The notes under the pieces were generated by a model. That model did not search any database. It was not told the DNA's origin and was given only the letters and a program-made list of their open reading frames with translations. Below, in pieces: positions 33,256-58,037 of a stretch of DNA of 64,000 nt. Position 1 is the first letter of the stretch, and every line of letters begins with the position of its first letter. The stretch is taken from assembly GCF_020010925.1 (NCBI RefSeq), contig NZ_JAGJBZ010000001.1, positions 62,001 to 126,000 of the forward strand, given 5' to 3'. The translations under genes were made by a program, and so were the position numbers. The stretch is from Streptomyces griseiscabiei (GTDB lineage Bacteria; Actinomycetota; Actinomycetes; Streptomycetales; Streptomycetaceae).

Positions 33256-34107
33256 CTAGGAAAACCCGACCCCCGACCAGTCGTCCACGGCGCACCGGCC
33301 GTCGGCGTCGTTTCCCGTGGACACGACTGTCCCGTCCGCGCGCAGACCGAGGGTGTGCGTCGAACCGGCCGCCACGGCGATGATGCCGCGCCAGTCGCCG
33401 ACCTCGCACTGTCCGTGACCGTTGTCCCCCACGGCGAGGACGCGCCCGGAAGCGGTGACCCCGACCGTGTGATAGCTGCCCGCGTCGAGCGCCACCACCT
33501 CTTCCCACCCGTCGACCTCGCACGCCCCGGTCGTCCGGTCGCCGGTCGCCACCGCCCGCCCGTCGGCCCTGAGGCCGACGGTGTGGACGTAACCGGCGGC
33601 GATCGCGGTCAGGTCCCGCCAGCCCTCGACGGCGCACTGACGTCGTCGGTCGTTGCCCGCGGCCAGTGCGGAACCGTCCGACCGGACGCCGACCGAGTGC
33701 CAGTCACCGCACGAGAGGGCGACCACCTCGCGCCAGGACCGTACGTCGCACTGCCCTTCCGCGTTCCGGCCGACGGCCAGCACGCGGCCGTCGCCGAGCA
33801 GCCCGAGGGTGCGGCGCCAGCCCGCGGCCACGGCTGTGACTCCACGCCATCCGGCGACAGCGCACTGCCCGTCGCCGTTCCACCCCGTCGCCAGCACCGT
33901 GCCGTCCGACCGGAGCCCCACCGTGTGGGACCGGCCCGTGTTCCTCGCCGTATGGACGTTGCCGACCGCCACGGAGACGACCTCCGCCCAGCCGTCGACC
34001 CGGCATTCCTCGGCCGCGGCGCGGCCCACGGCGAGGACGGTTCCGTCCCGGCGCCGTCCGACCGAATGACGCCTTCCCGCCGCCAACGCCGATGGATCGG
34101 CGAGCAT
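33256..34107 (-). CDS. seven-repeat RCC1-like beta-propeller protein
   Basis: This 283-aa protein is made almost wholly of seven repeats of about 38 residues with the consensus HTVGLRxDGTVLAxGxNxxGQCxVxxWRxVxAVAAG, as in RCC1 (alpha-tubulin-suppressor-like) repeats. They should form one closed seven-bladed propeller. Repeat 2 has an 8-residue insertion (ARNTGRSH region) and the last repeat is short. Each blade keeps a Cys in the QC/EC position and a Trp four or five residues later. No signal peptide is seen with the ATG at 34107, which AAGGAGG strongly supports over upstream starts. The propeller is probably a protein-binding scaffold. Its partner is unknown; it borders the STAND cluster. Confidence 0.82.
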   Translation of the reverse strand: MLADPSALAAGRRHSVGRRRDGTVLAVGRAAAEECRVDGWAEVVSVAVGNVHTARNTGRSHTVGLRSDGTVLATGWNGDGQCAVAGWRGVTAVAAGWRRTLGLLGDGRVLAVGRNAEGQCDVRSWREVVALSCGDWHSVGVRSDGSALAAGNDRRRQCAVEGWRDLTAIAAGYVHTVGLRADGRAVATGDRTTGACEVDGWEEVVALDAGSYHTVGVTASGRVLAVGDNGHGQCEVGDWRGIIAVAAGSTHTLGLRADGTVVSTGNDADGRCAVDDWSGVGFS

Positions 34108-34340
34108 CGTGCCTCCTTGTCCTCGCGCCGGGGCGAGTTCGCCGCACGCGACCCACATACGACCCAATCGCGACAGGGGATCCACTGAAGCAGACATGTC
34201 GGCCGCGCGACGGGATCTCCGGGGAGGTGGCCGCTCGTCGCGGCCGAACCTGCCTCGACGGTTCGGCGATCTCGGTCAGGGCTCGCGTGACTCTTGATCA
34301 AGGGGGCGCCCGGTTGGTTCACTTGCCCCTTGTGGAGAGC

Positions 34341-34802
34341 ATGCTGGCGGCGCTGATAGCGGTGGTGGGAACACTGCTCGGTGTCGTCGTAACAAACCGG
34401 CAGCAGAACAGACGTGCCGACCGGAGCGAGACGATCGCCGCCGCCGAGCGGCTGCGGCAGGAGAGGATCACGGCCTACGCCGAATTCGCCCGTACGGTCA
34501 TGGAGTTCAGGTCGTCGCAGTACCAGCGCTGGCGCCATCGCCAGGACGGACTCGACAGCCCTGCCTACGAAGAGGCCCGGTACGAGTCCCATCAGCGCAG
34601 GGCCCAGGCGTGGTACGCGCTGTACCGCGTCCGTCTGGTCGCGGCGGGCGAACGCGGCCTGGTGGAGCTCGGCAAGACGGCCATGACCCTCGCGACGCGT
34701 ATCGACGAGGCGAACGACGTGGAGGAGCTCAGGGACATCGGCTCCAGGACCCGGGTCGCGGTGGAGGAGTTCATCGACGCGGCCACCCCGCACATCTCCT
34801 GA
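34341..34802 (+). CDS. membrane-anchored helical protein, function unknown
   Basis: This 153-aa protein starts with one hydrophobic helix (MLAALIAVVGTLLGVVVTN) and continues as a charged, largely helical and probably coiled-coil domain (RRADRSETIAAAERLRQERI; RDIGSRTRVAVEEFIDAA). It is an inner-membrane anchored cytoplasmic protein. The ATG follows GTGGAGAG. Small proteins of this shape are widespread and unassigned in Streptomyces. It is read towards the kinase/NB-ARC gene and may be associated with that locus, but nothing in the sequence proves it. Confidence 0.65.
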   Translation: MLAALIAVVGTLLGVVVTNRQQNRRADRSETIAAAERLRQERITAYAEFARTVMEFRSSQYQRWRHRQDGLDSPAYEEARYESHQRRAQAWYALYRVRLVAAGERGLVELGKTAMTLATRIDEANDVEELRDIGSRTRVAVEEFIDAATPHIS

Positions 34803-34913: not shown

Positions 34914-35108
34914 ATGGGCGGCGCGGTGCACGAGGACGAACCCGAACCGGAGACCGGGGAGGTGAGATTCGGGGTCGAGGGCGAGGTGGAGGTCTTCGAC
35001 GGGACGGGATGGACTCCCTACCGGGGTCTGCCCGGTGACGATGCCGGAAGTGCCATGCGGGAGGACCCCGAGACCGACGCCGTGACGCGCCCGCCCGGCA
35101 GTGGCTGA
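34914..35108 (+). CDS. 64-aa acidic protein overlapping the kinase-STAND gene
   Basis: This is a short acidic protein with a small beta-rich centre (EVRFGVEGEVEVFDGTGWTP then YRGLPGDD) and disordered ends. Its last 8 bases overlap the GTG of the 1160-aa gene at 35101, so translation is coupled. The ATG at 34914 follows GGAAGGG. The segment V-E-V-x-D-G-x-G-W-x-P-Y resembles short partner proteins often encoded next to bacterial kinase or CHAT conflict genes, but I cannot name a family. It could be the trigger, adaptor or substrate of the large protein. Confidence 0.6.
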   Translation: MGGAVHEDEPEPETGEVRFGVEGEVEVFDGTGWTPYRGLPGDDAGSAMREDPETDAVTRPPGSG

Positions 35109-38100
35109 GGACCCCGGCGCACCACCCGGGCCGGACCACGGGGATGTGCCGCGGCGGGTACGGGACCCCCACGCCCGCCGCACGCTGGAGGAGTGGCTGG
35201 CCCGGACCGGAACGGTGCTGTCCTACGCGGGCTGGGAGGACGCGGGGAACTCCGGCGCCCAGGTGTTCGCGGTCTACGCGCAGCGCCTCGCCCAGGGGCG
35301 GCTCACCGATGCCCGCAAGCTCGTCGTCAAGGTGCTGCCACCGCGCGCCGCCACGGTCCGCGAGCCCCAACGGCACGCCTGCGCCGAGAGGTTGTCGACG
35401 CCCTACTTCGTCGAGCGCCGACTCGCACGGCAGTTGCCCGACTATCCGCCCCAGCCCCTCGACGGCAACGGCTGGATCATGTTCCAGGAGATCGCGGGCG
35501 GCAGTCTGACCGACTACCGGTCGCTGGCGGCGCTCATGGAGGCCGGAACCGTGGGCGCGCCCACGATCGCCGCGCTCTGCGGGCAGGTCGTCGAGTCGGT
35601 CCTGAACGAGTGGAACACGCCCCGGACCCTCAGCTTTCGCCGGGGGACGGCCTCCGAGATCCTCTCCCAGCTCCTCGGGCCCCGTATCGAGAAGGGCGGA
35701 ACCCTTCACACCTGGGCACGTCACGACCCCGGGCTGCTGGAGAGACCGCGCCGGTCCCTCTCGCTGCCCGGTGAGACACGGCCCTTCCCCAATCCCTTCG
35801 CCCTGGTGACCGGGCCCCGTACGGCCGGCGACGAGAACCTGGCGCTGCTGGCGGGTCTGGGACACGGCGATCTGCATCCGGGCAACGTGGTGTGCCGTCA
35901 TCGCTCCGCACACGAGGCGGACGCCCACCGGTTCATCGATCTGTCGAGGTTCGGCGAGGACGCGCCCCTGGTGTGCGACCCCGCCCACTTCGTTCTCTCG
36001 ATCGTGGCCTCGCGGCTGGCCTCGGAGCGGGCTCCCGAGGTCCGCACCGACCTCGCCCGGTATCTCATCGACCCCGACCGGCATCCGGGGCAACAGGTGC
36101 GCGGCGGCCTGCGCGAGGTGATCCGGTCGATCCACGAGGCGGAGAAGGGCTGGGCCGAGCACAACGGCCGCGGACTGTACGCGGAATGGCGGAGCCACCG
36201 GCTGCTGGCCCACCTCGCCTGCGCCCTGGTCTTCACCGGGCGAGCCTGGCTCCGCCCGGAGGACCGTTGGTGGTTCTTCGAACTGGCCGCGCGCGCGGCC
36301 GAGGCGTATCTCGCCCTCCAGGGCGAACGGACCGCCGCTCCGGCGCGCCCGGCCGACCCCCGTGCCGCCGCTGCCCGGGACGCCCGGTCCGGCGCCACGA
36401 CGCCTGCCCCGCCCGTGGTGTTCTGGCGGACCGCGCGCCCCACGGCCCCCCTCGCCTACCACGTGCCCCGCGAGCGGGAACTGGACGCCGTCGACCGGCT
36501 CCTCGCCCAGCGGGAACAGCCGGTGATCATCACCGGGCCACCCGGTACCGGCAAGTCCCAGCTGGCTCTGGAGTACCTGGACCGGCACGGCGGCGCGTAC
36601 GACTTCGTCGCCTGGCTGCCCGCCCGACGCGAGGAACTGCTGTCCCAGGTGGTGTCCGACCTGGCGCGGCTCTGCGGCGTCGAGACCGACGCCGCCGCCG
36701 GGACCGACGCCGTCATGGCGGCCCTGGGCCGGATGGGCAGCTGGCTCGTCGTGCTCGACGACGCCGACCGGCCCGCCGCCGTCCGCCGTCACCTCCCGCG
36801 CCCCGGCTCGCGCTTCACCGTACTGATCACGTCACGCAACCCCCTGTGGTCCCAGCTCGGGCCCCAGCATCCGCTCGGTGACTTCGACCGCGCGCAGTCC
36901 ACCCTCCTGCTCACCCGACGGGCCGGGCAGCTGTCCGCGCACGACGCCGACCGGGTCGCCGCCGCGCTGGGCGATCTGCCCCTCGCCGTGGACCAGGCCG
37001 CACAGCAGCTGGAGGGCTCTCCGATGAGCGCGGAGCGATACCTCGCGCTCATCGAGAAGCACGCCGGGAGCACCCTGGCCCGCGGGCTCGACGAGGACGT
37101 CTACCCGGCGTCCCTGGCCGCCGTCGTACGGATCGCCGTCGAACGGCTGGAGGAACAGGAACCCGACGCGGCTCGTCTCGTCCGGCTGATCGCGTGTTTC
37201 GCGACCGCCGCACTGCCCTTCTCGCTCCTCGACGAAACAGCCGCGCTGCTTCCCCCCGCCCTGCGCGGCGCCGTCGACCGGACGCCCGGCCTGCTCTCCG
37301 ACCTGGTGAAAACCGCGTCCCAGGTCGGCCTGGTACGGGTCGACCGCGGTGACCTCCACATGCATCAGCTGTTCCGCAGACTCGTCCGTGAGGAATGGAC
37401 ACCCGAGGTGGCCATGGACCGTTCATGGGCGCGACGCATGCTGTCGGCCACCGATCCGGGTGATCCCCGCGACCCCGGCACCTGGCGGACGTACGGTGCG
37501 CTGCTGCCGCACGTCCTCGAACTCGACCTCCCCGCCGCCCCGGAGGCCGCCTGCCATCGGATGTTCCTGCGCATGGTCCACTTCCTCACCGTGAGCGGCG
37601 ACGCCCGCACCGCGCGGGACCTCGTCCGGGCCGCGATCGAACGCTGGAGCACCGAGTACGGGGCCGACGTCGACCTCACGCTGTCCGCGACGGAGCACCT
37701 GGCCCGTGCCCATGTACAACTCGGCGACCACCGTACGGCGGTGGAGCTGGACCGGCGTGTGCTGGACCACCACATCCGCCGGTCGGGCGCCCGGAACGCC
37801 GAGACCCTCACCGCCGAGCACAACCTCGCGGCCGACCTCATCAGTCTCGTCTCCCACACCACGGGGCTGTACAGCGACGACGGCCGCGAGGTACTGCGGC
37901 TGCAGCGCGAGGTGGTGGACCACCGCACCGAGCTGCTCGGGGCGGACCATCGCGACACCCTCCTCTCGTTGCACAACCTGGCTCTGGTCCTGCGGGGCAC
38001 CGGGCACCTGGTCGAGGCCCGGGACACCCATCGCCGCGCGTACACGGCACTGGTACGCCTGCTCGGCAACGACCACCCCGAGACCCTCCGGGCGGCCCAC

Positions 38101-38583
38101 GGTCTCGCCGTCGGCCTCAAGGACACGGGGGAATCCGAAGAGGCCAGGAACCTGCATGAGGACACCCACCGGCGGCGCCGAGCGGTCCTCGGCCCGCATC
38201 ATCCCGATGTGGCGCAGTCCGCCTACAGCCACGCCCGCGCCCTCGGCGCCGGCGGGGACCACACGGCGGCGCTCGCACTGCTCAGGGACGCGCACGGCCG
38301 GGCCCTGAGCGTCCTGGGCCCGGACCACCCCGACACCCTGCGCTACGCCCACTGGCTGGCGGTGAGTCTGCGCCGCACGGGCGAGGGGGAGCGGGCCGCC
38401 CAGCTCATCGAGGACACCTACCGGCGCCGGCGGCGCCTGCTGGGCGAGTCGCACCTCGACACCCTGCGCTCGGCGTCCGTCCACGCGGCGGAGCTGCGGT
38501 ACGCCGGTGACGTGGACGCGGCCCGCGAACTGGAGCGGGCGACACGGACCGGGCTGGCACGGCTGACCAGCGGCACCGCCTGA
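35101..38583 (+). CDS. kinase-like / NB-ARC / TPR STAND protein
   Basis: This 1160-aa cytosolic fusion has three parts. Residues 1-420 form an aminoglycoside-phosphotransferase-like kinase fold: Lys77 in VVKVLP, catalytic loop HGDLHPGN (Asp257, Asn262) and metal Asp280 in FIDLS, all intact. Residues 455-760 are an NB-ARC ATPase: Walker A GPPGTGKS (Lys485), Walker B LVVLDDAD (Asp553), GDLPLAVDQAA as the GxP motif, and MHQLFRRLV as the winged-helix MHD region. Residues 840-1150 are tetratricopeptide repeats of the LGxDHPDTLxxxxxLA type. NB-ARC/TPR proteins act as signal-induced switches; here the output may be phosphorylation. It is co-expressed with the overlapping 64-aa ORF and faces two CHAT-STAND genes. 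Its substrate is unknown. Confidence 0.8.
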   Translation: MAEDPGAPPGPDHGDVPRRVRDPHARRTLEEWLARTGTVLSYAGWEDAGNSGAQVFAVYAQRLAQGRLTDARKLVVKVLPPRAATVREPQRHACAERLSTPYFVERRLARQLPDYPPQPLDGNGWIMFQEIAGGSLTDYRSLAALMEAGTVGAPTIAALCGQVVESVLNEWNTPRTLSFRRGTASEILSQLLGPRIEKGGTLHTWARHDPGLLERPRRSLSLPGETRPFPNPFALVTGPRTAGDENLALLAGLGHGDLHPGNVVCRHRSAHEADAHRFIDLSRFGEDAPLVCDPAHFVLSIVASRLASERAPEVRTDLARYLIDPDRHPGQQVRGGLREVIRSIHEAEKGWAEHNGRGLYAEWRSHRLLAHLACALVFTGRAWLRPEDRWWFFELAARAAEAYLALQGERTAAPARPADPRAAAARDARSGATTPAPPVVFWRTARPTAPLAYHVPRERELDAVDRLLAQREQPVIITGPPGTGKSQLALEYLDRHGGAYDFVAWLPARREELLSQVVSDLARLCGVETDAAAGTDAVMAALGRMGSWLVVLDDADRPAAVRRHLPRPGSRFTVLITSRNPLWSQLGPQHPLGDFDRAQSTLLLTRRAGQLSAHDADRVAAALGDLPLAVDQAAQQLEGSPMSAERYLALIEKHAGSTLARGLDEDVYPASLAAVVRIAVERLEEQEPDAARLVRLIACFATAALPFSLLDETAALLPPALRGAVDRTPGLLSDLVKTASQVGLVRVDRGDLHMHQLFRRLVREEWTPEVAMDRSWARRMLSATDPGDPRDPGTWRTYGALLPHVLELDLPAAPEAACHRMFLRMVHFLTVSGDARTARDLVRAAIERWSTEYGADVDLTLSATEHLARAHVQLGDHRTAVELDRRVLDHHIRRSGARNAETLTAEHNLAADLISLVSHTTGLYSDDGREVLRLQREVVDHRTELLGADHRDTLLSLHNLALVLRGTGHLVEARDTHRRAYTALVRLLGNDHPETLRAAHGLAVGLKDTGESEEARNLHEDTHRRRRAVLGPHHPDVAQSAYSHARALGAGGDHTAALALLRDAHGRALSVLGPDHPDTLRYAHWLAVSLRRTGEGERAAQLIEDTYRRRRRLLGESHLDTLRSASVHAAELRYAGDVDAARELERATRTGLARLTSGTA

Positions 38584-38631
38584 ACCGGGCCGTCCGCCGC
38601 CCCCCGGGCGACTCCGGCGACGGGTAACGTC

Positions 38632-41600
38632 TCAGTCCGGGTCCCCGAAGTCCTGTGCCGTGCGCACGGCTTCGACGACGGCGTCCGCCTCCGAGGGCTC
38701 CAGCGACCCCGCCAGCAGTTCCCGGAACCGGTCGTCCCCCACCTCCCTTGCCACGTCGGCTAGTTCGTACAGGGCAGTCGCCGCCACCGGTGTCCGTGGT
38801 CCGCATTCGAGCCCCGCGACGAAGCCGCGCAGGGCCAGGCCGAAGGCGGTCTCGGGGCTCCCCGCGAGCCGCTCCCGCTCGCTGAGCGCGGACAGCGCCC
38901 TGGCCTGTCCGTCGTGGTCCTCGATCGTCTCGAAGGTGTCCAGGGCCTGCCGGTGCCAGACCCGCGCACCGGCCGCGTCGCCCTCGGCGGCAGACAGCAG
39001 TCCCAGCTGGTGACGGGAACGGCCCGCGCCGTACCGGTCGCCGCAGTCCTCGGCGACGGCCAGCGCCCGCAGGTACAGGTCGCGGGCGCGCCCGGTGTCG
39101 CCCGTGCCCTGTGCCAGCACGCCCAGTTGGTGATGGACGGTGCCCACCCCCGCGCGGTCACCGGCGAGAGTCAGGAAGGCCAGGGCCCGCTCGTAGTGGG
39201 CCCTGGCCTGTCCCGGTTCGCCGGCGTCGTCGGCGATCATGCCCAACAGGTGTTCCCCGGCGGCGGTCCCGGCCACATCGCCCACCTCGTCCCCGATGCG
39301 CATGGCGCGCCGGCACAGGACGGTCGCCTGTGCGCGGTCGCCCTGTTCCTGTGCCAGCAGGGCGAGCTGGAGGTATCCGAAGGCGGTCGCCGTCCGGTCG
39401 CCGAGCCGTTCATGCACGGTCAGCGCGCGCCGGTAGTGACCCTCCGCCACGTCCAGCCGACCGCAGTTGTGTTCCACCACACCCAGTTGGTGCAGGGCGG
39501 CGGCCGTCCCCGCCGGGCTCTCCGCGTCGGGTTGGGCGGTCTCCAGGTCGAGAAGCGCCTCGTAGTGGCCCCGGGCCGCGGCCGTGTCACCCGTCGCGAT
39601 CGCCACACTGCCCAGGAAGTGCCGGGCGCGCTTCACCTCCGCCGGGTCGTCGGCCCCGGTGAAGGTCACCAGCGCTCGCTCGTAGCGCTTCCTCGCGGCC
39701 GGGTACTCCCCCATCGCCTCCTCCAGTGTGCCGAGTTCGAGGTCGGCAATCGCAGCGGCGTCTTCGAAGCCGACGCGGGTGAACAGCTCCAGTGCCCGCT
39801 CCCGGTGTGCCCTGGCCTCGGTGAAGCGCCCGGCGTCCTGTGCCGCGCAGCCCAACGCGTCGTACAGGACGGCGGCGGCATGGTCCTCCAACGGTGTCCA
39901 CGCCAGCGACTCCCGCGCCACGCGCTCCATCTCGGCGAAGGCGCCGGTGGGCCGCAGCCGGTCGACCAGTGCCACGGTCATCGTGAACGCCTCGTCGATC
40001 AGGCCCGCTTGCCGGAAGTGGTGTCGGCTCTCGGTCAGATCGAGCACGATCCTGGCGGTGTCGCCCTTCGACCGCTGGATGTCCAGCCAGTGCCGTGCGG
40101 CTTGCTCGTGGACGGCGGCCATCCGCTCCGGCGGCTCGGAGCCGGCCAGCAGCGAGGCCAGCCAACGGCACACGAAGTACGTGGGCCGATCGGCGACGGC
40201 GGAGGAGTGGGTGGCGTGGGTGGCGGTGCATTGCGTGGCGGTGGCGTCGGCGGTGGCCAGCAGGCCTCGGCTCTCCAGCAGGTCGATCGTCACGCGCGCC
40301 GGAACCGTACGGGTCTCCGGCCACTCCGCGAGGGCGTCCGGATGGAGGGGGTGCCGGTGGACCGACAGCGAGACGAGCAGCGTGTGCTGAACGGGCGTGA
40401 GGTCCCGCAGCAGCCGGTCCACCCCCGTGTCGCGGGCCAGCAGCCGGTACGTCGAGCGAATCGCGGACCCCAGTCCGGCCGAGCGGACCTCCGTACGCGA
40501 ACGGCCCTCGGCGGCCAGCCAGTCGGACAGCCGGTCGTCCAGCCCGGGCAGGACCGGCGCGGCGCCGCGTACCAGCGCGTCGAGCAGCCCCAGGCCGGCG
40601 GGATGGCCGCCGATCTCGGCCAGCACCCGCCGCACGGCTTCGTCGGGGAACCGGCTCAGGCCGGGCAGTCGGCCGATGAGCAGTCTCGACTCGCCCGGTG
40701 ACAAGGGGCCGAGGTGGTAGGACGCCGGCGCGCGGCCGGTCCGGGTCGGGAGTCGGAGCCGGTGCCGACCGGTGATGATCAGCCGGCACCGGTCGGAGTC
40801 GTCGGCCCAGTCGGCCAGCTGCCGGGCGAGCACGGGATCGGCGCAACGGGCGTACGGCTGACCCGGTACCGGTTCGGTCACCAGGTCGTCGACGACCACG
40901 ATCGGCGGCGGGCCGCCCGCCGGGTGTTCGGCCACCTTCCGGCGCGCCTCGGCCAGGACGGAGGCGTCGGCCGCGCCCGCGATCCGCACCACGTCCTCGT
41001 CCGGGGCGGCGAGGCGCTGGAGGAACTGGGTGACGAGCGTCGACTTGCCCACCCCGGCCTGTCCGTGCAGGACAAGTCCCCCGCACCCGTCGTCCCAGAG
41101 CCGCATCAGGTCACGCAGCACGGCGCGGCGGGCCACCGGCCGTACGTGCGGGCCCGGGCCCGGGGCGGTCACCGGCGTGGTGCGGGGCACGGCGTCGCGG
41201 GGCGTCGACCGGGGCCCTGCGGGCAGCGGCGGCGCTCCGAGGAACAGCGCCGGAGTGGGCCATTCGCACAGGTCGGCCGGGCCGCCGTGGTCCTGTGGGT
41301 GACGTTCCTCCAGCCGCTGCCGGGCCTCGGCGACCGCGTCGAGGACGGCCGACGGGTCCGCGACTCCGTCCGCGGGGTCGGGGCGGCCCAGGAGGGAGTA
41401 CAGCTCGGCGCAGAAAGCCGCGGCGTAGTCGTCGCTCACCGCCGCTGTCATGGCCAGTACGGACGGTACGCCGGACGCGACGAGTTCGGCGGCGAGGCCG
41501 CTGAGCCGTTCCTCCTCCCCCGCGGCCGGTGCCGGGTCGTCCGGGGAGCGCCCGGCCCCCGTGGAGCAGCCCGCCAGCACCACGAGCCGGGGCATGCCGC

Positions 41601-42420
41601 CGACCGGGACGGCGTCGGCGAGGTCCCGCGCGGTCACCGGGTGGGTCCGGCCACGGCCGTCCTCCAGCAGCAGTGCGTCCGCGCGCGCATGGCAGGACAG
41701 GTGCAGGATGTCGCGGGGGCGGCGCCCCATCGCCCGGCGGATCTCGGTGAGCGTGTCGGGGCCGTCGATCATCTCGACGTCGATGTGCCGCTGCCGCACG
41801 CCCGCCTCGACGGCGCCGACGATCCGTCGTGCGTCCGCCTCCAGGTCCAGCGCGACCCCCTCGACCTCGTCGAGGGGGTCCGCGAAGGCGGCCAGGATCC
41901 GCAGACCGTGCGCCGGAGCGGGTTCGTGGACGGGCTCCCGCCGCACCGTCGGCACGCGGTAGAACCGGACCCGGGGCGACAGCGCGAGCGGTGCGGGGGC
42001 CCCGGGCAGCAGCACGGTCTCCCACGGCAGCCCGGCGAACTCCGGTACGGACACCGCGACTCCGATCCACACGGGCCGCTCGGGACCGCTCGTGTCCAGC
42101 GCGTGGGCGACGGCGTCCGCGGCGGGCCCGCCGAGGAACGCCTCGCCGAGTGCGATGCCCAGGGCGTGGACGGCGTACCGGGACGCGGTGGACGCCGACG
42201 TGGTCCTGCTCGTGGCCGGGTCGAACCTGGTCAGCGACGGGCGCCGGCCCCGGGCGAGCGTGAGCCTCCACAGTCGCTCCAGCACGGCGCGGGTGAGTCC
42301 GCGATGCTCTTGGGTGACGACGCAGGTGCCGTCGACCTCCACGGCGGTCTCCTTGCGGGTCACCGTCACCAGGACGGAGACCGGTCGCACGGTGGTGTCG
42401 GAGCCGGTCGCGGACCTCAC
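38632..42420 (-). CDS. CHAT protease / NTPase / TPR protein, second of a tandem pair
   Basis: This 1262-aa protein begins with a ternary-complex-like segment (to about residue 120). A CHAT caspase-like protease domain follows at about residues 160-420, with the catalytic dyad His244 (HLSCHAR) and Cys285 (LAGCSTG). Next is a STAND NTPase with Walker A HGQAGVGKST (Lys459) and Walker B IVVVDD. The remainder from about residue 790 is roughly ten TPRs of 40 residues (for example RARDLYLRALAVAEDCGD). CHAT-TPR proteins are proteases switched on by ligand binding or ATPase oligomerisation, some cleaving gasdermins. The GTG start at 42420 overlaps the upstream paralogue's stop (GTGA), giving one operon. 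No gasdermin-like substrate is next to it. Confidence 0.82.
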   Translation of the reverse strand: MRSATGSDTTVRPVSVLVTVTRKETAVEVDGTCVVTQEHRGLTRAVLERLWRLTLARGRRPSLTRFDPATSRTTSASTASRYAVHALGIALGEAFLGGPAADAVAHALDTSGPERPVWIGVAVSVPEFAGLPWETVLLPGAPAPLALSPRVRFYRVPTVRREPVHEPAPAHGLRILAAFADPLDEVEGVALDLEADARRIVGAVEAGVRQRHIDVEMIDGPDTLTEIRRAMGRRPRDILHLSCHARADALLLEDGRGRTHPVTARDLADAVPVGGMPRLVVLAGCSTGAGRSPDDPAPAAGEEERLSGLAAELVASGVPSVLAMTAAVSDDYAAAFCAELYSLLGRPDPADGVADPSAVLDAVAEARQRLEERHPQDHGGPADLCEWPTPALFLGAPPLPAGPRSTPRDAVPRTTPVTAPGPGPHVRPVARRAVLRDLMRLWDDGCGGLVLHGQAGVGKSTLVTQFLQRLAAPDEDVVRIAGAADASVLAEARRKVAEHPAGGPPPIVVVDDLVTEPVPGQPYARCADPVLARQLADWADDSDRCRLIITGRHRLRLPTRTGRAPASYHLGPLSPGESRLLIGRLPGLSRFPDEAVRRVLAEIGGHPAGLGLLDALVRGAAPVLPGLDDRLSDWLAAEGRSRTEVRSAGLGSAIRSTYRLLARDTGVDRLLRDLTPVQHTLLVSLSVHRHPLHPDALAEWPETRTVPARVTIDLLESRGLLATADATATQCTATHATHSSAVADRPTYFVCRWLASLLAGSEPPERMAAVHEQAARHWLDIQRSKGDTARIVLDLTESRHHFRQAGLIDEAFTMTVALVDRLRPTGAFAEMERVARESLAWTPLEDHAAAVLYDALGCAAQDAGRFTEARAHRERALELFTRVGFEDAAAIADLELGTLEEAMGEYPAARKRYERALVTFTGADDPAEVKRARHFLGSVAIATGDTAAARGHYEALLDLETAQPDAESPAGTAAALHQLGVVEHNCGRLDVAEGHYRRALTVHERLGDRTATAFGYLQLALLAQEQGDRAQATVLCRRAMRIGDEVGDVAGTAAGEHLLGMIADDAGEPGQARAHYERALAFLTLAGDRAGVGTVHHQLGVLAQGTGDTGRARDLYLRALAVAEDCGDRYGAGRSRHQLGLLSAAEGDAAGARVWHRQALDTFETIEDHDGQARALSALSERERLAGSPETAFGLALRGFVAGLECGPRTPVAATALYELADVAREVGDDRFRELLAGSLEPSEADAVVEAVRTAQDFGDPD

Positions 42421-45400
42421 GCGGGTTCCTGCGGACCGCGGGAGTGGTAGCGGCGCGCCGCCGCGGGCCGGCCCAGGTCCTGGAAGCAGTCGCCGATGAC
42501 GCGGTAGGTGGCGGGCCGCTCCCGTGTCTCGTCGGTCCGGCGGTACAGGGCCAGTGCCTCCCGGGCGTGGGCCAGTCCCGCGAGCGGCCGGCCCCGTCCG
42601 CGGGCGAGGGAGGCGAGCCGGGTCAGGCACTGGGCCTGGCCGACCACCCGGCGCAGTTCCCTGTTCAGGTCCAGCGCGATCCGCACATGCTCCTCCGCGA
42701 TGTCGAGCGAGCCCTGGCGCTCCGCGCAGATGCCCAGGTGCTGGTGGGAACGGGCGATCTCCTCGGTGGCGTCGCGAGCGGTGGCGATGCGCAGCGCGGT
42801 GTCGAACTCGGCGTGTGCCTCGTCGAGTTCGCCCGCGATCACGTGCAGGCTGCCGACCTGGTTGTGGATCTCCATTTCCTGCATCTCGTCGCCGATGTCC
42901 CGGCACAGGCCCGCCGCGGTGCGGCAGTGCGCCATGGCGGTGGTCATGTCCTGGGCGTCCTGGGCGACATAGGCCAGGCTGCGCAGACAGGCGACGACGG
43001 CACCGGTGTCCCCGGCCCGTTCGAAGGCGGCCAGTGCCTCCTCGTAGCCGGTCCGGGCCTGGCCGGCGCTGCCCCGGTACTCCTCCAGCATGGCCAGTTG
43101 GTAGCGGGAGGCAGCGGCGTCCCGGTCCAGGCCGAGGCGTTGGAACACCTCGAAGGCGCGGCGGTAGCGTCGCTCGGCGTCGGCGTAGTCGCCGAGTTCG
43201 TGGAGCACCGAGCCGAGCTGGTGCTCGGCGAAGGCGATCCCCTGGAGGTCGCCGGCCGCGTCGCTCACCGTCAGCGCGCGCTCCAGGTGTTCCCGCGCCG
43301 GATGCATCGTGCCTCGGTCGCGGGCGATGAGACCGAGCTGCCGATGGGCCTGGGCCGACTGCCCGGAGCCGGGTTCGACCCAGTCCAGTACCCGTCGGCA
43401 CAGGTTCTCCTCGGCGGTCCAACGGCCCATCCCGTGCAGCAGCCGGCACAGGCGCTGTGCCACCTCGGCGGCCCGTGCGGGCCGGTCGACGGCCTCGTGG
43501 TGGTCGACCGCCTCGAACCCCGCGTGGACGCGTTGCCGCTGGGGAAGCGTCTGCCGGTCGAGGACGTCCGCCCAGTGGGCGGCGGCCCGTTCATGGCCCC
43601 GATGGGTCGACGGGGCGTCCAGCGCGGCCAGTTCGGCCGCGGTCCAGCGATGCACCGACCACAGCGGCTCGCCGTCCGGCCCGATGCCGTCCGGGGCCAG
43701 GAGTCCGGCGGAGACCAGTTCGTCGAGGGCGCCCGCCACGTCCTCGGCGTCGGTGAACGCCTGTTGCGGAACGGGTGAGCGATGTACCGCCGCGTACGTG
43801 AGCAGGCTCCGGGATTCGGCGTCGAGGGTGGCGACGAGATCGCCGAGCAGTGTGTCGGCTGCGGTGATCCGTAAGGCCTCCCGCAGGGCGCCTCGCGTGC
43901 GTCCCGCGATCCGGCCCCGGGTGGCGGCGATGCCGTCGGTGAGTTCTTCGAGCCGGCGGGCAAGATCGGTGTCGGTGACGGAGGTGCGGCTGAGGAGGGC
44001 GTCCAGATAGCCGTAGGTCCGGGGGTGGCCGCCCACGGCTTCTTTGAACCGGTCCCATTCACCGGACGGCAGTCGACGGGTCTGCGGAAGTCTGAGGCGC
44101 AGCAGGTCCGTCTCGGCCGGCGTCAGCGGTGGCAGGGCCAGATGTGGCAGCCGTGCCGCTCCGTGTCGGCCGGGCGGGAGGGGGTGGCGGGAGGTGACGA
44201 GGACGGGCGGTCTCGGGTCGAGGGCCGCCCAGGATTCCAGGAACGCGCCGAGTTCCGGATCGGTGAAGCCCGTGGGCCGGCCCGGGCGGCGGGCGAGATT
44301 CGCCTCGAACTCGTCCAGCACCAGGACCGGCGCCGAGGCCGGGAGGTCGGCTGCCGTGCGGGCGAATTCACGCAGCCGGTCCGGCCATGGGCGCCGGGCG
44401 TCGGTGAGCGGATGGGTTTCGTCCACCGGCCCGGGCAGGACGGCCGTGATCGTGTGCAGGACCTCCTCGACGTCCGTCCTGCCCCGCACCAGGGCGACAG
44501 GACGGCCGGCGCCGTGGAAGCGCAGCAGTTCCCCCACGAAGGCGGACTTCCCTCCTCCGCCGACGCCGTGGACGACCAGCCCCGTGCCTTCCGTGCCCAG
44601 TGCGCGCGCGGCGATGCGCAGTTGGGGCCGGCGCCCCACGAACGTGCCCAGCGGCAGGGCGAGGGGTGGCTGCGCCAGGGGTGGCCGCGCGAGGGGTGTC
44701 GCGGTCGGGCCCGTACGGATGTGGCGTTCGTCCGGGACGGCTCCGGGGTCCGCGGTCCGTGGACCGGGCGCGGACGGGGACCCGGAACTGGGCGTGGCTG
44801 CCGTTCGGGCGGTGGTGTACAGGACCGGGATGTGCCACTCGGGCAGGGCGGCGTCACCGCCGACTGTCCGCCGGGCCGTCTCCAGGGCGAGGCGTGCCGA
44901 GTGCAGGGCGTGCAGCGGGCCGACCCCGGAGGCGAGTCCGGCGTGGAAAGCGGCGGTCAGCCGGCCCGCGTAGGCGTCCCGGACGGGTGCGGACATGGCG
45001 AGGACCGCGGGCATTCCGGAGGCGGCCAGTTGCTCGGCCATGCCGGGCAGGAAGGCCGTGCCGCCACTCTCCTGACCGGGCAGGCGCCGTGCGGAAGCCG
45101 TCGAGCAGCCTGCCAGGACCAGCACGGGCGACGACCGGGCGGCGGTCAGCGCCCGGTACAGGTCGTCGGCCGTGACCGGGTGCGGGGTCCCGTCGACGGT
45201 CTCCAGCCGGAGGTGCCCGGGGCGGGCGTGGCAGACGATGTGGACGATGTCGGCGGGTGCTTCCCGCAGCGCGGCGGCCAGGGCGTCCAGGCTGCCCGAA
45301 CTGAGCAGCCGCAGGTCGACGGTGGCCGAACCGGTCACCGCCGCGGTCAGACGGGCTGTCTCCGCCTCCAGGTCGAGCAGCCCCTCGTGCGGGGTGTGCG

Positions 45401-45938
45401 CGGAGGAGGGACCTGCCAGCAGCGCCACCAGCCGCAGGGGCCGCGCCGTGCCCGGCGCGGCCACCTGGGTCGGGTGTCCGCCGCCGGGGCCGGTGCGAAA
45501 GGGGCGGATGACGGGGTGCAGCGCGAGGGGGTCCGCCTCTCCGGGCAGCAGCAGCATCTCCCAGGGCAGTCCGGCGAGCGACGGTGACTCGGCCGCCAGT
45601 GCGAGCGGCAGGGTGTCTCCGCTCCGCAGGGCGTCCCGCGCCGCGTCGCTCAGTGCCCGGCACACGGGGCTCCCGGCCCGTTCCCCGAGGAGGCGCCCCA
45701 TCCGCTGAGTGAGCTGGATCGCCTCGCCGATCCGTTCGCGATCCAGTGACTCCCGCGAGCGCTCGTGCAGCCGGGTCACGGCACGCGCCGTCTCCACCAA
45801 CGAGAAGTCCGAGACGGTGCGCGGCGCGCGGGCGACCACCTGCCCGCCGGCCGACAGGGTGACGTCCGCAGTCGTCACGGTCAGACGGTGGTGCACCGGG
45901 TCGCCGTCGTATGCCTCGCTCGTGTGCTCTTGGTTCAC
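42417..45938 (-). CDS. CHAT protease / NTPase / TPR protein, first of a tandem pair
   Basis: This 1173-aa paralogue of the downstream protein has the same order of domains: N-terminal region, CHAT protease with His237 (HIVCHARPGH) and Cys278 (LAGCSTAS), STAND NTPase with Walker A GVGGGGKS (Lys464) and Walker B VLVLDEFE, then TPRs from about residue 770 (EHLERALTVSDAAGD). A Pro/Leu-rich linker (ATPLARPPLAQPPLALPLG) separates protease and ATPase. GTG 45938 (VNQEHTSEA) is chosen because GAGGAG lies 8 nt upstream; the frame is open to 45998. Both dyads and both P-loops being intact suggests two active, possibly specialised copies. The radical SAM gene begins divergently 211 bp away. Confidence 0.82.
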   Translation of the reverse strand: MNQEHTSEAYDGDPVHHRLTVTTADVTLSAGGQVVARAPRTVSDFSLVETARAVTRLHERSRESLDRERIGEAIQLTQRMGRLLGERAGSPVCRALSDAARDALRSGDTLPLALAAESPSLAGLPWEMLLLPGEADPLALHPVIRPFRTGPGGGHPTQVAAPGTARPLRLVALLAGPSSAHTPHEGLLDLEAETARLTAAVTGSATVDLRLLSSGSLDALAAALREAPADIVHIVCHARPGHLRLETVDGTPHPVTADDLYRALTAARSSPVLVLAGCSTASARRLPGQESGGTAFLPGMAEQLAASGMPAVLAMSAPVRDAYAGRLTAAFHAGLASGVGPLHALHSARLALETARRTVGGDAALPEWHIPVLYTTARTAATPSSGSPSAPGPRTADPGAVPDERHIRTGPTATPLARPPLAQPPLALPLGTFVGRRPQLRIAARALGTEGTGLVVHGVGGGGKSAFVGELLRFHGAGRPVALVRGRTDVEEVLHTITAVLPGPVDETHPLTDARRPWPDRLREFARTAADLPASAPVLVLDEFEANLARRPGRPTGFTDPELGAFLESWAALDPRPPVLVTSRHPLPPGRHGAARLPHLALPPLTPAETDLLRLRLPQTRRLPSGEWDRFKEAVGGHPRTYGYLDALLSRTSVTDTDLARRLEELTDGIAATRGRIAGRTRGALREALRITAADTLLGDLVATLDAESRSLLTYAAVHRSPVPQQAFTDAEDVAGALDELVSAGLLAPDGIGPDGEPLWSVHRWTAAELAALDAPSTHRGHERAAAHWADVLDRQTLPQRQRVHAGFEAVDHHEAVDRPARAAEVAQRLCRLLHGMGRWTAEENLCRRVLDWVEPGSGQSAQAHRQLGLIARDRGTMHPAREHLERALTVSDAAGDLQGIAFAEHQLGSVLHELGDYADAERRYRRAFEVFQRLGLDRDAAASRYQLAMLEEYRGSAGQARTGYEEALAAFERAGDTGAVVACLRSLAYVAQDAQDMTTAMAHCRTAAGLCRDIGDEMQEMEIHNQVGSLHVIAGELDEAHAEFDTALRIATARDATEEIARSHQHLGICAERQGSLDIAEEHVRIALDLNRELRRVVGQAQCLTRLASLARGRGRPLAGLAHAREALALYRRTDETRERPATYRVIGDCFQDLGRPAAARRYHSRGPQEPA

Positions 45939-46149
45939 AGATCGACTCCTCGACTCGGCGGGAGGAAGTGGAGCATCGCCGGGTGCGCGCGGACACATCC
46001 GCCCATTGTGGGGTGCGCGGGCGTGGCAGTGCGCCGACTGCCCCCCGATTACGGGAAGTTGATCGGGTACGGCCGATGCCCTGCGAGGCGAGGGGCGGGG
46101 CGGGGGCGGGCATGGCGAGGGACGGGGTGGCGGGAGCCCGAGGAGCCGG

Positions 46150-47538
46150 GTGATCTCCGGCCTTCAGAGGGGGAGGGAAGTCGAGCATGATGACGGGATG
46201 AACCACAGCGACCAGCGCTTCCATGTCATCGTGCTGTCGAACTTCGCGAGGGGCTTCGACAAGTACGCGTTCGCCTACGGCAAGGCGGGGATCCCGGAAA
46301 GCACCTATCCCGACCGGTTCCATCTGCTGACCCGCGCGGAGTTGGGGATCGGCGTCGGCAAGGCGCGACGCCTGCTGGACCGGCTGGCGGTTCCGGGCGA
46401 CCGGCTGTTGGTGCTGGAGACCACGGTGGACCCCGACAGGCTGGTGCCCAATGTGTCGACCGGGCTCGGCATGGAACTGCGCGAGGCTCGCATCCGGTTG
46501 TCAGCGGTCCATGAACTCGACCACGAGGGCGACGAGTTCACTCTGCGGCCGACGACCGTCGAGGACGCGATGGCGGCCTCGCTGCACCTGCACGGCTCGG
46601 CGCTGCGTCGCTACGCCGACACACGGCCGCGCTCGGTGTCGATCCTGCCGGTCGCCTCCGCCTGCCAGGCCCGCTGTTCGTTCTGCTTCTCCTCGGCCTC
46701 GATCTCCAGCGACCAGCCGCCCGCACGGGTCCCCTGGGACGCGGTCGCCCACTGGCTGGAGCGGGCCCGTGCGGCGGGCGCCGAGCGTGCGGTGATCACC
46801 GGCGGCGGGGAGCCCACGCTCATACCGTTCGAACAGCAGCTGCGGCTGGTGTCCGCCTGCTCGGCGGCCTTCCCGAAGGTCGTCCTGATCACCAACGCGC
46901 ACACCCTGGCCAAGGGCGGGCACACCGACCGGGCCGACCGCCTCGCCGCCCTGGGCGCCGCGGGCCTGAGCGTGCTGGCGGTCTCCCGGCACCATCAGGA
47001 CGACACCGTCAGCGAGCGGCTGATGATGCTTCGCACACCGGTGACCTCCGTGATCGACACCTGGCGCACGGAACGCGACCGCTGGCCGGGCTTGCGGATG
47101 CGGCTGATCTGCGTGCTCCAGCACGGGGGCGTCGCCGACGCGGCCGATGTCGCCGACTACCTTTCGTGGGCCGCGGCCCGAGGTGTCGAGGAAGTCTGTT
47201 TCAAGGAGCTCTACGTGTCCACCAGCACGGAGTCGCTCTACTTCGACCGCACCGCCAACGTCTGGAGCCGCGAACACCAGGTCTCGCTGTCCGTCGTCAC
47301 CGAATTCGCCGAGCGGCACGGCTTCGCGCTCGCGGACCGCCTGCCCTGGGGCGCGCCGGTGTACCACGGCAGCTGGGACGGCCGGCCGATACGGATCGCC
47401 GCCTACACCGAACCCAGCCTGCTCTGGGAACGCACCCACGGGATCGCGCGCAGCTGGAACGTCATGGCCGACGGACGGTGCTACGCCTCCCTGGAGGACC
47501 GGGCCAGCGAGATCGTGCCGGAAGGCGCGACGGCATGA
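46150..47538 (+). CDS. radical SAM protein
   Basis: This 462-aa protein (446 aa if ATG 46198 is used) has the radical SAM signature CQARCSFC (C-x3-C-x2-C, about residue 172) and a following SAM-binding GGGEPTL (about residue 216). An N-terminal domain of about 150 residues (FHVIVLSNFARGFDKYAF) that I do not recognise precedes the barrel. No SPASM cluster motif is evident at the C-terminus. GTG 46150 has GAGGAG 4 nt before it, whereas ATG 46198 has no clear ribosome site, so the longer form is preferred with doubt. Its stop overlaps the aminotransferase ATG (ATGA). The pair looks like a two-step modification of an amino acid or peptide. The substrate is unknown. Confidence 0.75.
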   Translation: MISGLQRGREVEHDDGMNHSDQRFHVIVLSNFARGFDKYAFAYGKAGIPESTYPDRFHLLTRAELGIGVGKARRLLDRLAVPGDRLLVLETTVDPDRLVPNVSTGLGMELREARIRLSAVHELDHEGDEFTLRPTTVEDAMAASLHLHGSALRRYADTRPRSVSILPVASACQARCSFCFSSASISSDQPPARVPWDAVAHWLERARAAGAERAVITGGGEPTLIPFEQQLRLVSACSAAFPKVVLITNAHTLAKGGHTDRADRLAALGAAGLSVLAVSRHHQDDTVSERLMMLRTPVTSVIDTWRTERDRWPGLRMRLICVLQHGGVADAADVADYLSWAAARGVEEVCFKELYVSTSTESLYFDRTANVWSREHQVSLSVVTEFAERHGFALADRLPWGAPVYHGSWDGRPIRIAAYTEPSLLWERTHGIARSWNVMADGRCYASLEDRASEIVPEGATA

Positions 47539-48602
47539 GGTCCCAGGAGTTCGAGGAGTTCCAGGCATTCCGGCAGCGGCAGCTCAGCGCTTCCGCGTCG
47601 CTCCTGGACGCCGCCGAGACGAATGTGTACCGGGCGCTTGCCCCGATGCGACCGGAACCGCCGGCCGACACGCAGAAGGTGTACCGATGCGACCTCGCCC
47701 GAACCTGGCTGCGGCGCTTCGAACTGCCGGAGGAGTGGTCCGGCCGCGCCATGGTCTGCCGAGGGGTCCGGCACGGGCTCGGGGTGGTGTTCCCCTGGCT
47801 GCGCGCCGTCGGGGCACGGCTGTGGCTGCCCGGCGACGTGTACCCGGTGTACTTCGAGCTGGCCCGCGCGGCGGGGCTGGCGCCCGGCTCCTACCCGACG
47901 CTGCCGGCACCGACCCTGCCGACGTCCCCGGCCTCCCCGACACCTCCGTCCTTCCCGATGTCGCCGCCGGACCAGCGGCCCGAGTACCTGCTGCTCGCCA
48001 ACCCCAGCAAGCCGCTCGGCCGATACCTGTCCGACGACGAGTGCGCAGCGGTGATCGCGTGGTTGCGGGAGGCACCGCATCGCCACATTCTGATCGACAG
48101 CGTCTACGACCTGGGAGCCCCGTTCGCCGCCGGCACACGGCGGCTGCTGGACACCGGTCGTGCGATCCTGCTGCATTCGGTCACCAAGGGATGGCTGTGG
48201 CCCCGTACGTTCGGCGTGGTCCTCCTGGGTCCGGCGCACACCGAACTGGCCGAGGCGTTCCGGGCGGATCCGCCGGCGCCGGCGCAACTGGGGCTCGCCG
48301 ACCGCCTGCTGACCGAGCACGGTGACGTACCCCGGCGCGTCGGCGACGAACTGACGGCGCGGGCTGAGCGGCTGTTCGAGCGGTTGCCGGACGACGTGCT
48401 CAAGGCGATTCCCACGGCGAGCCGGACGTGTCCCGGCAACTACTTCTTCCCGGCCGACATCCCCGCGCAGACGCTCCAACGCGAGTACGGCGTACTCGCG
48501 CTGCCGGTCGGCGTGTTCGGTGAGAGCACCTGGTCCGGCTCCGTCCTGACCAGCCTCGGTGACGCGCTCTCCCCCACGCCGACGGGCACAGGGAACCGCT
48601 GA
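47535..48602 (+). CDS. fold-type I PLP aminotransferase-like protein
   Basis: This 355-aa protein is of the aspartate-aminotransferase superfamily. The Schiff-base Lys is Lys218 in HSVTKGWLWPRTFG, the pyridine-binding Asp lies in LIDSVYDLG, and the Asn in LANPSKPLGRYLS is the usual cofactor contact. It is shorter than most aminotransferases and has a Pro-rich insert (TLPAPTLPTSPASPTPPSF, about residues 120-138) not typical of the family. It is translated with the preceding radical SAM protein (ATGA overlap). Together they could make an unusual amino acid, aminated product or cofactor-like signal. Aminotransfer, lyase and cyclase chemistry are all possible for this fold. Confidence 0.75.
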   Translation: MRSQEFEEFQAFRQRQLSASASLLDAAETNVYRALAPMRPEPPADTQKVYRCDLARTWLRRFELPEEWSGRAMVCRGVRHGLGVVFPWLRAVGARLWLPGDVYPVYFELARAAGLAPGSYPTLPAPTLPTSPASPTPPSFPMSPPDQRPEYLLLANPSKPLGRYLSDDECAAVIAWLREAPHRHILIDSVYDLGAPFAAGTRRLLDTGRAILLHSVTKGWLWPRTFGVVLLGPAHTELAEAFRADPPAPAQLGLADRLLTEHGDVPRRVGDELTARAERLFERLPDDVLKAIPTASRTCPGNYFFPADIPAQTLQREYGVLALPVGVFGESTWSGSVLTSLGDALSPTPTGTGNR

Positions 48603-54183: not shown

Positions 54184-55431
54184 CTACGCAGTCACGCCGG
54201 CAGTCGTTCCGCCACCCGCGTGTGTGCGGACCGGCAGGGACCGCACGCCGCGGTGCAGCATGCTGGGCCGCACGTTCAGCTCCGCCGGGTCGGCCGCCAG
54301 GTGCAGGACGGGGAAGCGTGCGAGCAGGCGTGCGAAGGCGATCTCGCTCTCGGCCCTGGCGAGCGGTGCGCCCACGCAGTGGTGGATGCCGTGGCCGAAC
54401 GCGAGATGACCGGTCGCGGCGCGGGTGATGTCGAGTGCGTCCGGGGCGGGGTAACGGGCCGAGTCACGGTTCGCCGCCAGGAGGCCGACGAAGACGAACT
54501 CGTCGGCCGGTATGGTCACGTCCCCGACGGGGACCGCGGCGGTGGTGCGCCGGAAGTGACTGATGTTGGCGGAGCCGTCGAAGCGCAGGAACTCCTCGAC
54601 CGCGCCCGGCAGCAGCGACGGATCGGCCCGCAGACCGGCGAGCTGGTCCGGGTGGCGCAGCAGGGCGAGAGTGCCGTTGCCGATGAGGTTGACCGTGGTG
54701 TCGAAGCCGCCGACGAAGAGGACGACGGCGAGGGAGACCACCTCCTCGTGGCTGAGCCTGTCCTCGCCGTCGGCCGCGAGGATCAGCGAACTGAGGAGCC
54801 TGTCGTCGGGCTCGGCGCGCTTGGCCTCGACGATGGCACTCACCAGGGTCAGCAGTGCGTTGGACGCCTTGTTCACCAGGCTCCGGTCCGCGTCGGAGGT
54901 CAGGATCTCGGAGGTTTCGCGGAACTCGGCGCGGTCGCCCTCGGGGACCCCCAGCAGTTCGGAGATCACCGTGCTGACCAGAGGGGCCGCGTAGTCGGCG
55001 ACGACGTCGAACTCGCCGCGGTCGGCCAGGGAGTCGAGGATCTCGTCCGCGATCTCCTCGATCCGGGGGCGCAGCCGGTTCACCTGCCGCATGGTGAACG
55101 CCTTGCCGACGAGGCCGCGCAGCCGGGTGTGGTCCGGCGGATCCATGTTGATCATGGACTGCTGGATCGAGTGGGAGTAGTCGCGCTGACGGTTCATGTC
55201 GGTCTGGTGAAGCTCGAAGAGGTGCCCCGCGTCGGCCATGTTCTTGCTCACGCGCGGGTCGGCGAGCAGGGCCCGGCCCTCCTCGTAGGAGGTGATCAGC
55301 CAGACCTTGAGGCCGGTGGGCAGAATGGCCCGGTGGACCGAACCCTCCTGGCGCAGCCGGTCGTAGACGGCGTGGGGGTCGCGGACGAAGTCGGCGCCGA
55401 GCACCACGGGTTCGGTCGTCGGGGATGACAT
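54184..55431 (-). CDS. cytochrome P450
   Basis: This 415-aa soluble bacterial P450 has the haem-binding loop FGHGIHHCVGAPLARAE with Cys352, the K-helix motif EEFLR and the I-helix oxygen-activation segment VGGFDTTVN, where Gly replaces the usual Ala before the Gly. The early DPPDHTRLRGLVGKAFT is typical of the CYP105/107-like families used in secondary metabolism. It needs an external ferredoxin and reductase, and none is adjacent. ATG 55431 was picked over the frame start at 55461 because homology starts with the former. It is the last gene of the leftward polyketide operon and probably oxidises the product. Confidence 0.92.
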   Translation of the reverse strand: MSSPTTEPVVLGADFVRDPHAVYDRLRQEGSVHRAILPTGLKVWLITSYEEGRALLADPRVSKNMADAGHLFELHQTDMNRQRDYSHSIQQSMINMDPPDHTRLRGLVGKAFTMRQVNRLRPRIEEIADEILDSLADRGEFDVVADYAAPLVSTVISELLGVPEGDRAEFRETSEILTSDADRSLVNKASNALLTLVSAIVEAKRAEPDDRLLSSLILAADGEDRLSHEEVVSLAVVLFVGGFDTTVNLIGNGTLALLRHPDQLAGLRADPSLLPGAVEEFLRFDGSANISHFRRTTAAVPVGDVTIPADEFVFVGLLAANRDSARYPAPDALDITRAATGHLAFGHGIHHCVGAPLARAESEIAFARLLARFPVLHLAADPAELNVRPSMLHRGVRSLPVRTHAGGGTTAGVTA

Positions 55432-55538
55432 GGGGTGACCGCCTTTCAGGGAGGTTCTCACTCAAGGGGGCGTCCCGGGCCGGGAGTTGCCGGAGGGCTC
55501 GGGGGGATCCGGGGACGGCCGTGGTCCCCGGGGTCCGC

Positions 55539-56369: not shown

Positions 56370-56385
56370 GACGGGCCGCCCTCCT

Positions 56386-57951: not shown

Positions 57952-58037
57952 GAGTTCCTCCGGTGAGTCTCCGAGGGGCCCTCGGGCCGTGCGGTGCGGG
58001 TGTTCGTGGGGTCGGGGCGAGGCCGTGGTGCGGTGGT

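Follow-up and report, generated by a model that had tools for sequence, protein, structure and literature searches.

In this study, we analyzed a stretch of 64,000 nucleotides from Streptomyces griseiscabiei (hereafter the window; the genome comprises 10.6 Mb on eight contigs) and found that positions 34914-45938 are occupied by four genes, not three: a gene for a 64-residue acidic protein, a kinase-NTPase-TPR gene (A) that overlaps it, and two CHAT-protease genes (B and C). Relatives of the small protein are encoded next to CHAT genes, directly ahead of a membrane-protein gene, in 14 loci of other actinobacteria, and this association of small gene, membrane protein and CHAT gene is well supported. 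We propose that the locus may be a co-inherited conflict or cell-death module gated by CHAT proteases, in which the small protein would be the target or brake and the gene coupled to it the executor; judged from sequence, this reading is plausible, with a chance somewhat short of even. The small coupled protein, together with the membrane-protein/CHAT module elsewhere, is a more informative part than the three large genes. A sequence-only reading of the window had reported three large kinase or CHAT NTPase/TPR genes with intact catalytic motifs, which is borne out; it missed the small gene, and position 34914, where it let the locus begin, belongs to the separate 64-aa gene found before A, whose own start is at 35101. 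The features are as follows.

34914..35108, + strand: small acidic protein gene, 64 aa; its last 8 bp are shared with the start of A
35101..38583, + strand: gene A, 1160 aa; APH-type kinase, NB-ARC-type NTPase, TPR
35140..36336, + strand: kinase domain of A, with K77, H255-x-D257-x4-N262 and D280
38632..42420, - strand: gene B, 1262 aa; CHAT protease, P-loop NTPase, TPR
42417..45938, - strand: gene C, 1173 aa; CHAT protease, P-loop NTPase, TPR

The small gene begins with ATG behind a good ribosome-binding sequence (GGAAGGG), and its GC content by codon position (0.78/0.55/0.83) is of the coding type. Silent changes are favored between the closest orthologues (silent, pS, 0.06-0.15; replacement, pN, 0.01-0.03) and, in the conserved core, in three of four more distant pairs, the L140/L145 pair being the exception. 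The product contains 16 D/E and 4 K/R among its 64 residues, ends in RPPGSG, has no transmembrane helix by hydropathy and matches no Pfam or NCBIfam family above cut-off. It shares 31-42% identity with 12 other family members, and R18, E26, G30 and W33 are invariant in all 13 sequences. A single-sequence fold prediction of moderate confidence placed three short strands in residues 17-36 and showed the tail as loose, with a mean predicted local distance difference test (pLDDT) score of 71 and values of 79-89 in the blocks with predicted strands; Foldseek returned nothing significant with this model, the chance-level matches including WW domains (best E 1.9). With its three strands and loose acidic end, the predicted structure would be apt for a binding module whose tail can be cleaved. 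The tail of the window protein bears some Thr/Ser, and the tails of several relatives are more acidic. On the same strand, positions 34314-34802 encode a 162-aa protein with one N-terminal hydrophobic segment, which stops 111 bp before the small gene and may belong to the same operon; it has no family match and no significant similarity to the transmembrane protein beside the L041 kinase gene.

A single-sequence search of 100 genomes returned only the window copy of the small protein. Its relatives came to light next to C-type genes: in other Streptomyces, three genes 49-51% identical to C each follow a gene for a membrane protein of 251 aa, which in turn follows the gene for a small-protein relative of 59-62 aa. 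A four-sequence profile run on 392 Streptomyces genomes found 49 places at E <= 0.05, 14 of them at E <= 6e-6 (the four seeds and ten new ones). All ten new places adjoin a CHAT gene, the one in genome G208 having also been reached via C. The 35 weaker places (E > 6e-6) lie mostly in long frames, and none of the three fetched stands beside a CHAT gene. A profile of the membrane protein run on 33 chosen genomes matched nine, five of which were already known; it added one more complete triad, L160 from Micromonospora, a copy truncated by the end of its contig (G017), a match at E 0.009 (G020) and a partial match in G011 (locus L161) that stands beside neither a CHAT nor a small gene. The L161 protein (L161:8852-9829) has its first two hydrophobic segments as in the triad membrane protein, followed by what look by eye like pentapeptide-type repeats, and has no CHAT neighbor.

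In the 14 examined loci, the gene after the small gene encodes a membrane protein of one family. The stop of the small gene and the start of the membrane-protein gene overlap by exactly 4 bp in 13 of them, and by 25 bp in the fourteenth with the start chosen by the gene caller. Three hydrophobic segments were found in the membrane proteins of the 13 loci scanned by hydropathy (L160 was scanned only coarsely). NCBIfam recognized none of the four proteins scanned and Pfam none of five above cut-off; one has a sub-threshold match to CyanoTRADDas_TM.

Four layouts of the CHAT neighbor occur. First, three loci carry a C-type CHAT/P-loop/TPR protein. Second, two (L094 and L160, the latter from Micromonospora) carry a divergent, B-like CHAT gene. 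Third, five carry long CHAT/P-loop proteins, with NB-ARC above cut-off in one of the five; these loci share neighbors and were counted as one lineage. Fourth, four loci have a long protein that carries CHAT at its C-terminal end, lacks a P-loop motif and matches TPR models below threshold only. Pfam CHAT was above cut-off in all 11 large neighbors scanned, which cover three of the layouts; in the remaining one, that of the three seed loci, the neighbor was judged by its similarity to C and a home-made CHAT profile. Since both home-made profiles were trained on the triad loci, Pfam is the independent evidence for CHAT there. As a control, 19 loci (374 kb) with a relative of A's kinase contained a CHAT gene in one case (L099) and a small or membrane gene in none; the first home-made profile missed L099, and the broader profile used for this control was trained with it. 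Additionally, none of four loci with weak small-protein or membrane-protein matches contained CHAT. Genome searches scored only a few first-look candidates (4 to 88) in each genome, so that misses are possible.

The source genome itself gave no match to the membrane-protein profile at E <= 0.01 among the 88 of 138 first-look candidates scored; the coupled place, with its 8-bp overlap, is therefore held here by the kinase-NLR A. The small protein is read as target or brake because it is what the window and the 14 loci have in common besides CHAT, and because it is translated with the next gene.

On this basis, the following sequence of events may be envisaged. The TPR end of C and B would sense a trigger; their P-loop NTPase would then switch and oligomerize, and the N-terminal CHAT protease would turn active. 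Its most likely target would be the 64-aa protein, which would act as a gate: synthesized ahead of the executor, to which it is coupled in translation, it would hold the executor off or serve as a switchable tag. In the other loci, the coupled executor would be the membrane protein, with the membrane as its presumed site of action. Here, the kinase-NLR A would replace it, its phosphotransferase domain becoming active on release. The established facts of this picture are the gene layout, the intact motifs, the co-occurrence of A, B and C, the recurrent association of small gene, membrane protein and CHAT, and the gene overlaps; sensing, cleavage, inhibition and killing are what we infer.

The catalytic motifs on the protease side of this scheme are intact. 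Pfam CHAT (PF12770, cut-off 24) scored 67.4 bits in B and 71.5 bits in C, and TPR_12 reached 114.9 bits in B. The two proteins are paralogous (about 29% identity), and both retain Walker A/B and the SCHAR/VCHAR and AGCST motifs, which we take to be the catalytic His and Cys motifs of CHAT. Among 28 aligned homologues of B and C, the Cys is kept in all and the His in 27: both motifs are present in 11 of 11 B homologues, and the C homologues keep Cys in 17 of 17 and His in 16 of 17, the exception (P0149) being without the His region. Walker motifs are kept in the C homologues; they are degenerate in the B homologue P0036 and partly so in P0034 and P0035. The STAND label of the sequence-only reading holds as far as A, B and C have Walker A/B motifs placed between the effector domain and the repeats; AAA models, including AAA_16, reached the P-loop regions of B and C only below the Pfam cut-off, so that for these two the assignment rests on architecture and motifs. 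The gene models agree with relatives: the database copy of B is also 1262 aa, and full-length close homologues of C (P0144-P0147) have 1160-1173 aa, which favors the start at 45938 over the alternative in-frame start at 45998. C and B lie in tandem in this order, the stop of C and the GTG start of B overlapping by 4 bp. Codon-position GC bias is strong in all three large genes. A genome search found five CHAT places in the source genome, B and C being two of them.

Proteins of this build could also work as regulators (cf. HetF and AfsR-type proteins), and the locus could then be a developmental or metabolic signalling switch rather than a defence or death system. B has a weak HetF match and both B and C have AfsR TPR matches, all far below cut-off. 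The searches gave no sign of a mobile setting: among 50,697 phage records, neither C nor the membrane protein found a match; in 72,556 plasmids, the membrane protein found none, C was matched in its TPR range only and one distant kinase turned up; and in IMG/VR no relative was confirmed with C, A or the membrane protein as query, the scans with C and A reaching close relatives only. Against a core switch stands the patchy spread of A, as a close relative of its kinase was found in none of the other 391 Streptomyces genomes (four candidates scored per genome). We regard the signalling switch as somewhat unlikely.

The sequence-only reading had called A a kinase/NB-ARC/TPR protein. Pfam gave its kinase part no match of its own; the predicted fold of residues 16-412 or so (predicted template modeling score, pTM, 0.85; with kinase matches) is that of the choline/aminoglycoside kinase superfamily (APH/choline-kinase type). 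A search of the PDB with the kinase sequence yielded a single match (E 0.4). The kinase K/HxD..N/D motifs and Walker A/B are intact in A; K77, H255, D257, N262 and D280 are invariant across 19 aligned kinase sequences, window A included, and in 12 aligned homologues of A the kinase residues are kept, with Walker A/B kept in nearly all. TPR_12 was above the Pfam cut-off and AAA_22 scored 27.8 bits against a cut-off of 27. No BLAST similarity was seen between A and B or C at E <= 1e-3. The NTPase/TPR half is common: 72 of 100 genomes (source included) matched the whole protein at E <= 1e-30, in nearly all cases outside the kinase. The kinase region had matches in 18 other genomes of the 392, all with at most 38% identity, and a kinase-alignment scan of named genomes found at least six loci, all distant; nine close relatives known as protein records share 59-87% identity over the kinase. 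TCAD9 (PF19974) gave no match for A; it matches the kinase relatives P0014, P0018, P0020, P0022 and P0023 and scores 30.6, with a cut-off of 40, in the relative of L042. Kinases of the same family, 569-625 aa long, adjoin genes of similar size in L042, L043, L045, L046, L095, L096, L097 and L100; the one in L042 has xanthine-dehydrogenase, XdhC and permease proteins as neighbors, which suggests that one branch of the family is linked to purine metabolism.

Alternatively, the small protein might itself be the substrate of A, its phosphorylated form controlling the CHAT proteases; A would then be a regulator and not a killer. We consider this unlikely.

Databases label homologues of A as part of an FxSxx-COOH system, in which case the locus would be a peptide-modification system with the neighboring radical-SAM gene as maturase. 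A scored 529 bits against NCBIfam FxSxx_TPR (NF040586, cut-off 300), its named homologues bear the FxSxx name, and the distance between C and the start of the radical-SAM gene is 150-260 bp, according to which starts are chosen. The best stretch of the match covers residues 457-983; because it is confined to the NTPase/TPR half, where the likeness to the FxsT-type NTPase/TPR protein of that system lies, the label, judging from sequence, is misleading. Unlike that system, A has a kinase N-terminus, the small protein lacks an FxSxx end, and the radical-SAM protein has no match to any FxsB maturase model, its best NCBIfam match being viperin-like (31.6, cut-off 180). The radical-SAM gene forms a compact pair with an aminotransferase-like gene (46195-48602). 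It occurs in 14 other genomes of the 392 at 89-94% identity, adjoined by the aminotransferase in each (the match in L076 is only partial), and in none of them do A, B or C lie within 1.5 kb. The pair was accordingly rejected as part of the locus, and the FxSxx explanation is very improbable.

The sequence-only reading had suggested asking whether the kinase and CHAT genes co-occur in other actinomycetes and had named a lack of conserved co-occurrence as refuting; the analysis did not find such a lack. In the protein records, A, B and C have relatives in overlapping sets of Streptomyces strains, and in four other genomes the records suggest one contig, equal contig size being taken as the same contig and gene order being absent from such records: in NPDC101237, A, B and C are all on a contig of size 61977, in MB09-02B and NPDC018972 A and B are on contigs of size 67011 and 791047, and in NPDC004270 A and C are on one of size 414066. 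Because of these shared strains and matching contig sizes, the three genes are probably inherited together. The opposite view treats A as independent of the B/C pair, all three being genes of an accessory region; it draws on the convergent arrangement and on C-type proteins (about 50% identity) in three other genomes that have neither A nor its kinase. Close relatives of A, B and C sharing strains and contig sizes argue against it, as does the small-protein family, which links A's operon to CHAT genes in other genomes. Such a chance neighborhood appears quite unlikely.

Several points weigh against the proposed CHAT-gated module. In the window, the small gene is coupled to A and the CHAT genes are convergent to it, 48 bp separating the stop codons of A and B; a shared pathway of the small protein and CHAT is inferred for the window because of the other loci. 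The small gene ahead of A is known from the window only, since the relatives are protein records. Several of the 14 loci are orthologous, and the independent evidence amounts to about four layouts; a second small-protein search, in 110 genomes around G362, returned G362 alone and added nothing new, the 20 others that it listed having been covered by the earlier search. In addition, S. bottropensis has A, B and C with different contig sizes in the three records, and no partner is listed for the A of NBC_00481 or for the B of NBC_00391 and of NPDC058683; clustering of the database at 90% identity can hide members, so that missing partners do not equal absence. Finally, the same anatomy is compatible with a role in signalling or development.

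The domain make-up of A, B and C is in keeping with the conflict systems described from multicellular bacteria, which, in the accessible text, comprise caspase, STAND/AP-ATPase and APH-kinase parts (Kaur et al. 2020, PMC7159879; Kaur et al. 2021, PMC8195603). As in those systems, the host is an actinobacterium and NTPase switches with repeats, caspase-superfamily proteases and APH-like kinases come together; unlike them, the locus and its relatives include the small and membrane proteins, which were not found in the accessible text of either description. For the VMAP/vWA/MoxR ternary system, no Pfam match to MoxR, vWA or VMAP was found among the 14 window genes at 29928-52199. The two-gene EACC1-caspase system, as far as its accessible description goes, likewise has a small 5' gene, a caspase-type protease and a membrane link, and differs in that EACC1 has a single transmembrane helix (PMC7159879); by hydropathy, the small protein here lacks such helices, and the membrane proteins of 13 loci have three. 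Craspase/TPR-CHAT with Csx30 is similar in that a switchable CHAT-TPR protease cleaves a separate partner, and differs, in the text available, by its RNA-guided activation, B and C having a P-loop NTPase-TPR part instead (PMC10028731, PMC11106740); no CRISPR effector was matched among the scanned window genes. In the nuclease-trypsin pairs of antiviral systems, a paired protease similarly frees a proenzyme executor, the protease and executor families being different according to the accessible part of that report (PMC12799240). PADLOC gave generic TPR matches for B and C, a weak SAVED_CHAT match (26.2 bits) for C and no match for A or the small protein. The small gene/membrane protein/CHAT module was not found in the literature searched, in which subscription papers are thinly covered, including the accessible text of PMC7159879, PMC8195603, PMC10910872 and PMC10907252. 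Conflict systems with caspase/CHAT, STAND and APH-kinase parts are already described.

Two further observations concern the surroundings. Upstream, positions 33256-34029 encode a 257-aa protein that consists mostly of RCC1 repeats; RCC1-repeat proteins are unusual in bacteria. Downstream, 54184-63929 is probably the border of a natural-product cluster: it encodes a P450, a luciferase-like monooxygenase, an AMP-binding enzyme and a polyketide synthase module of 1963 aa that includes a thioesterase.

Substrates are known for only a minority of bacterial CHAT proteases. A small family that travels with four CHAT layouts and overlaps the gene of a presumed executor offers a concrete candidate substrate, and one that is workable with small proteins. 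It is possible, though on the doubtful side, that this acidic, Trp-bearing protein of 50-75 residues is a portable gate between NLR-type CHAT proteases and interchangeable executors, in most cases a membrane protein and in the window a kinase-NLR; this would be an actinobacterial switch not described before, and the two proteases and the kinase would make the locus of S. griseiscabiei a layered NLR circuit. If this were true, protease attack on one tiny shared target would fire different death or defence outputs, and the family would show a single gate wired to different outputs, in parallel with the NLR-caspase circuits of animals and fungi.

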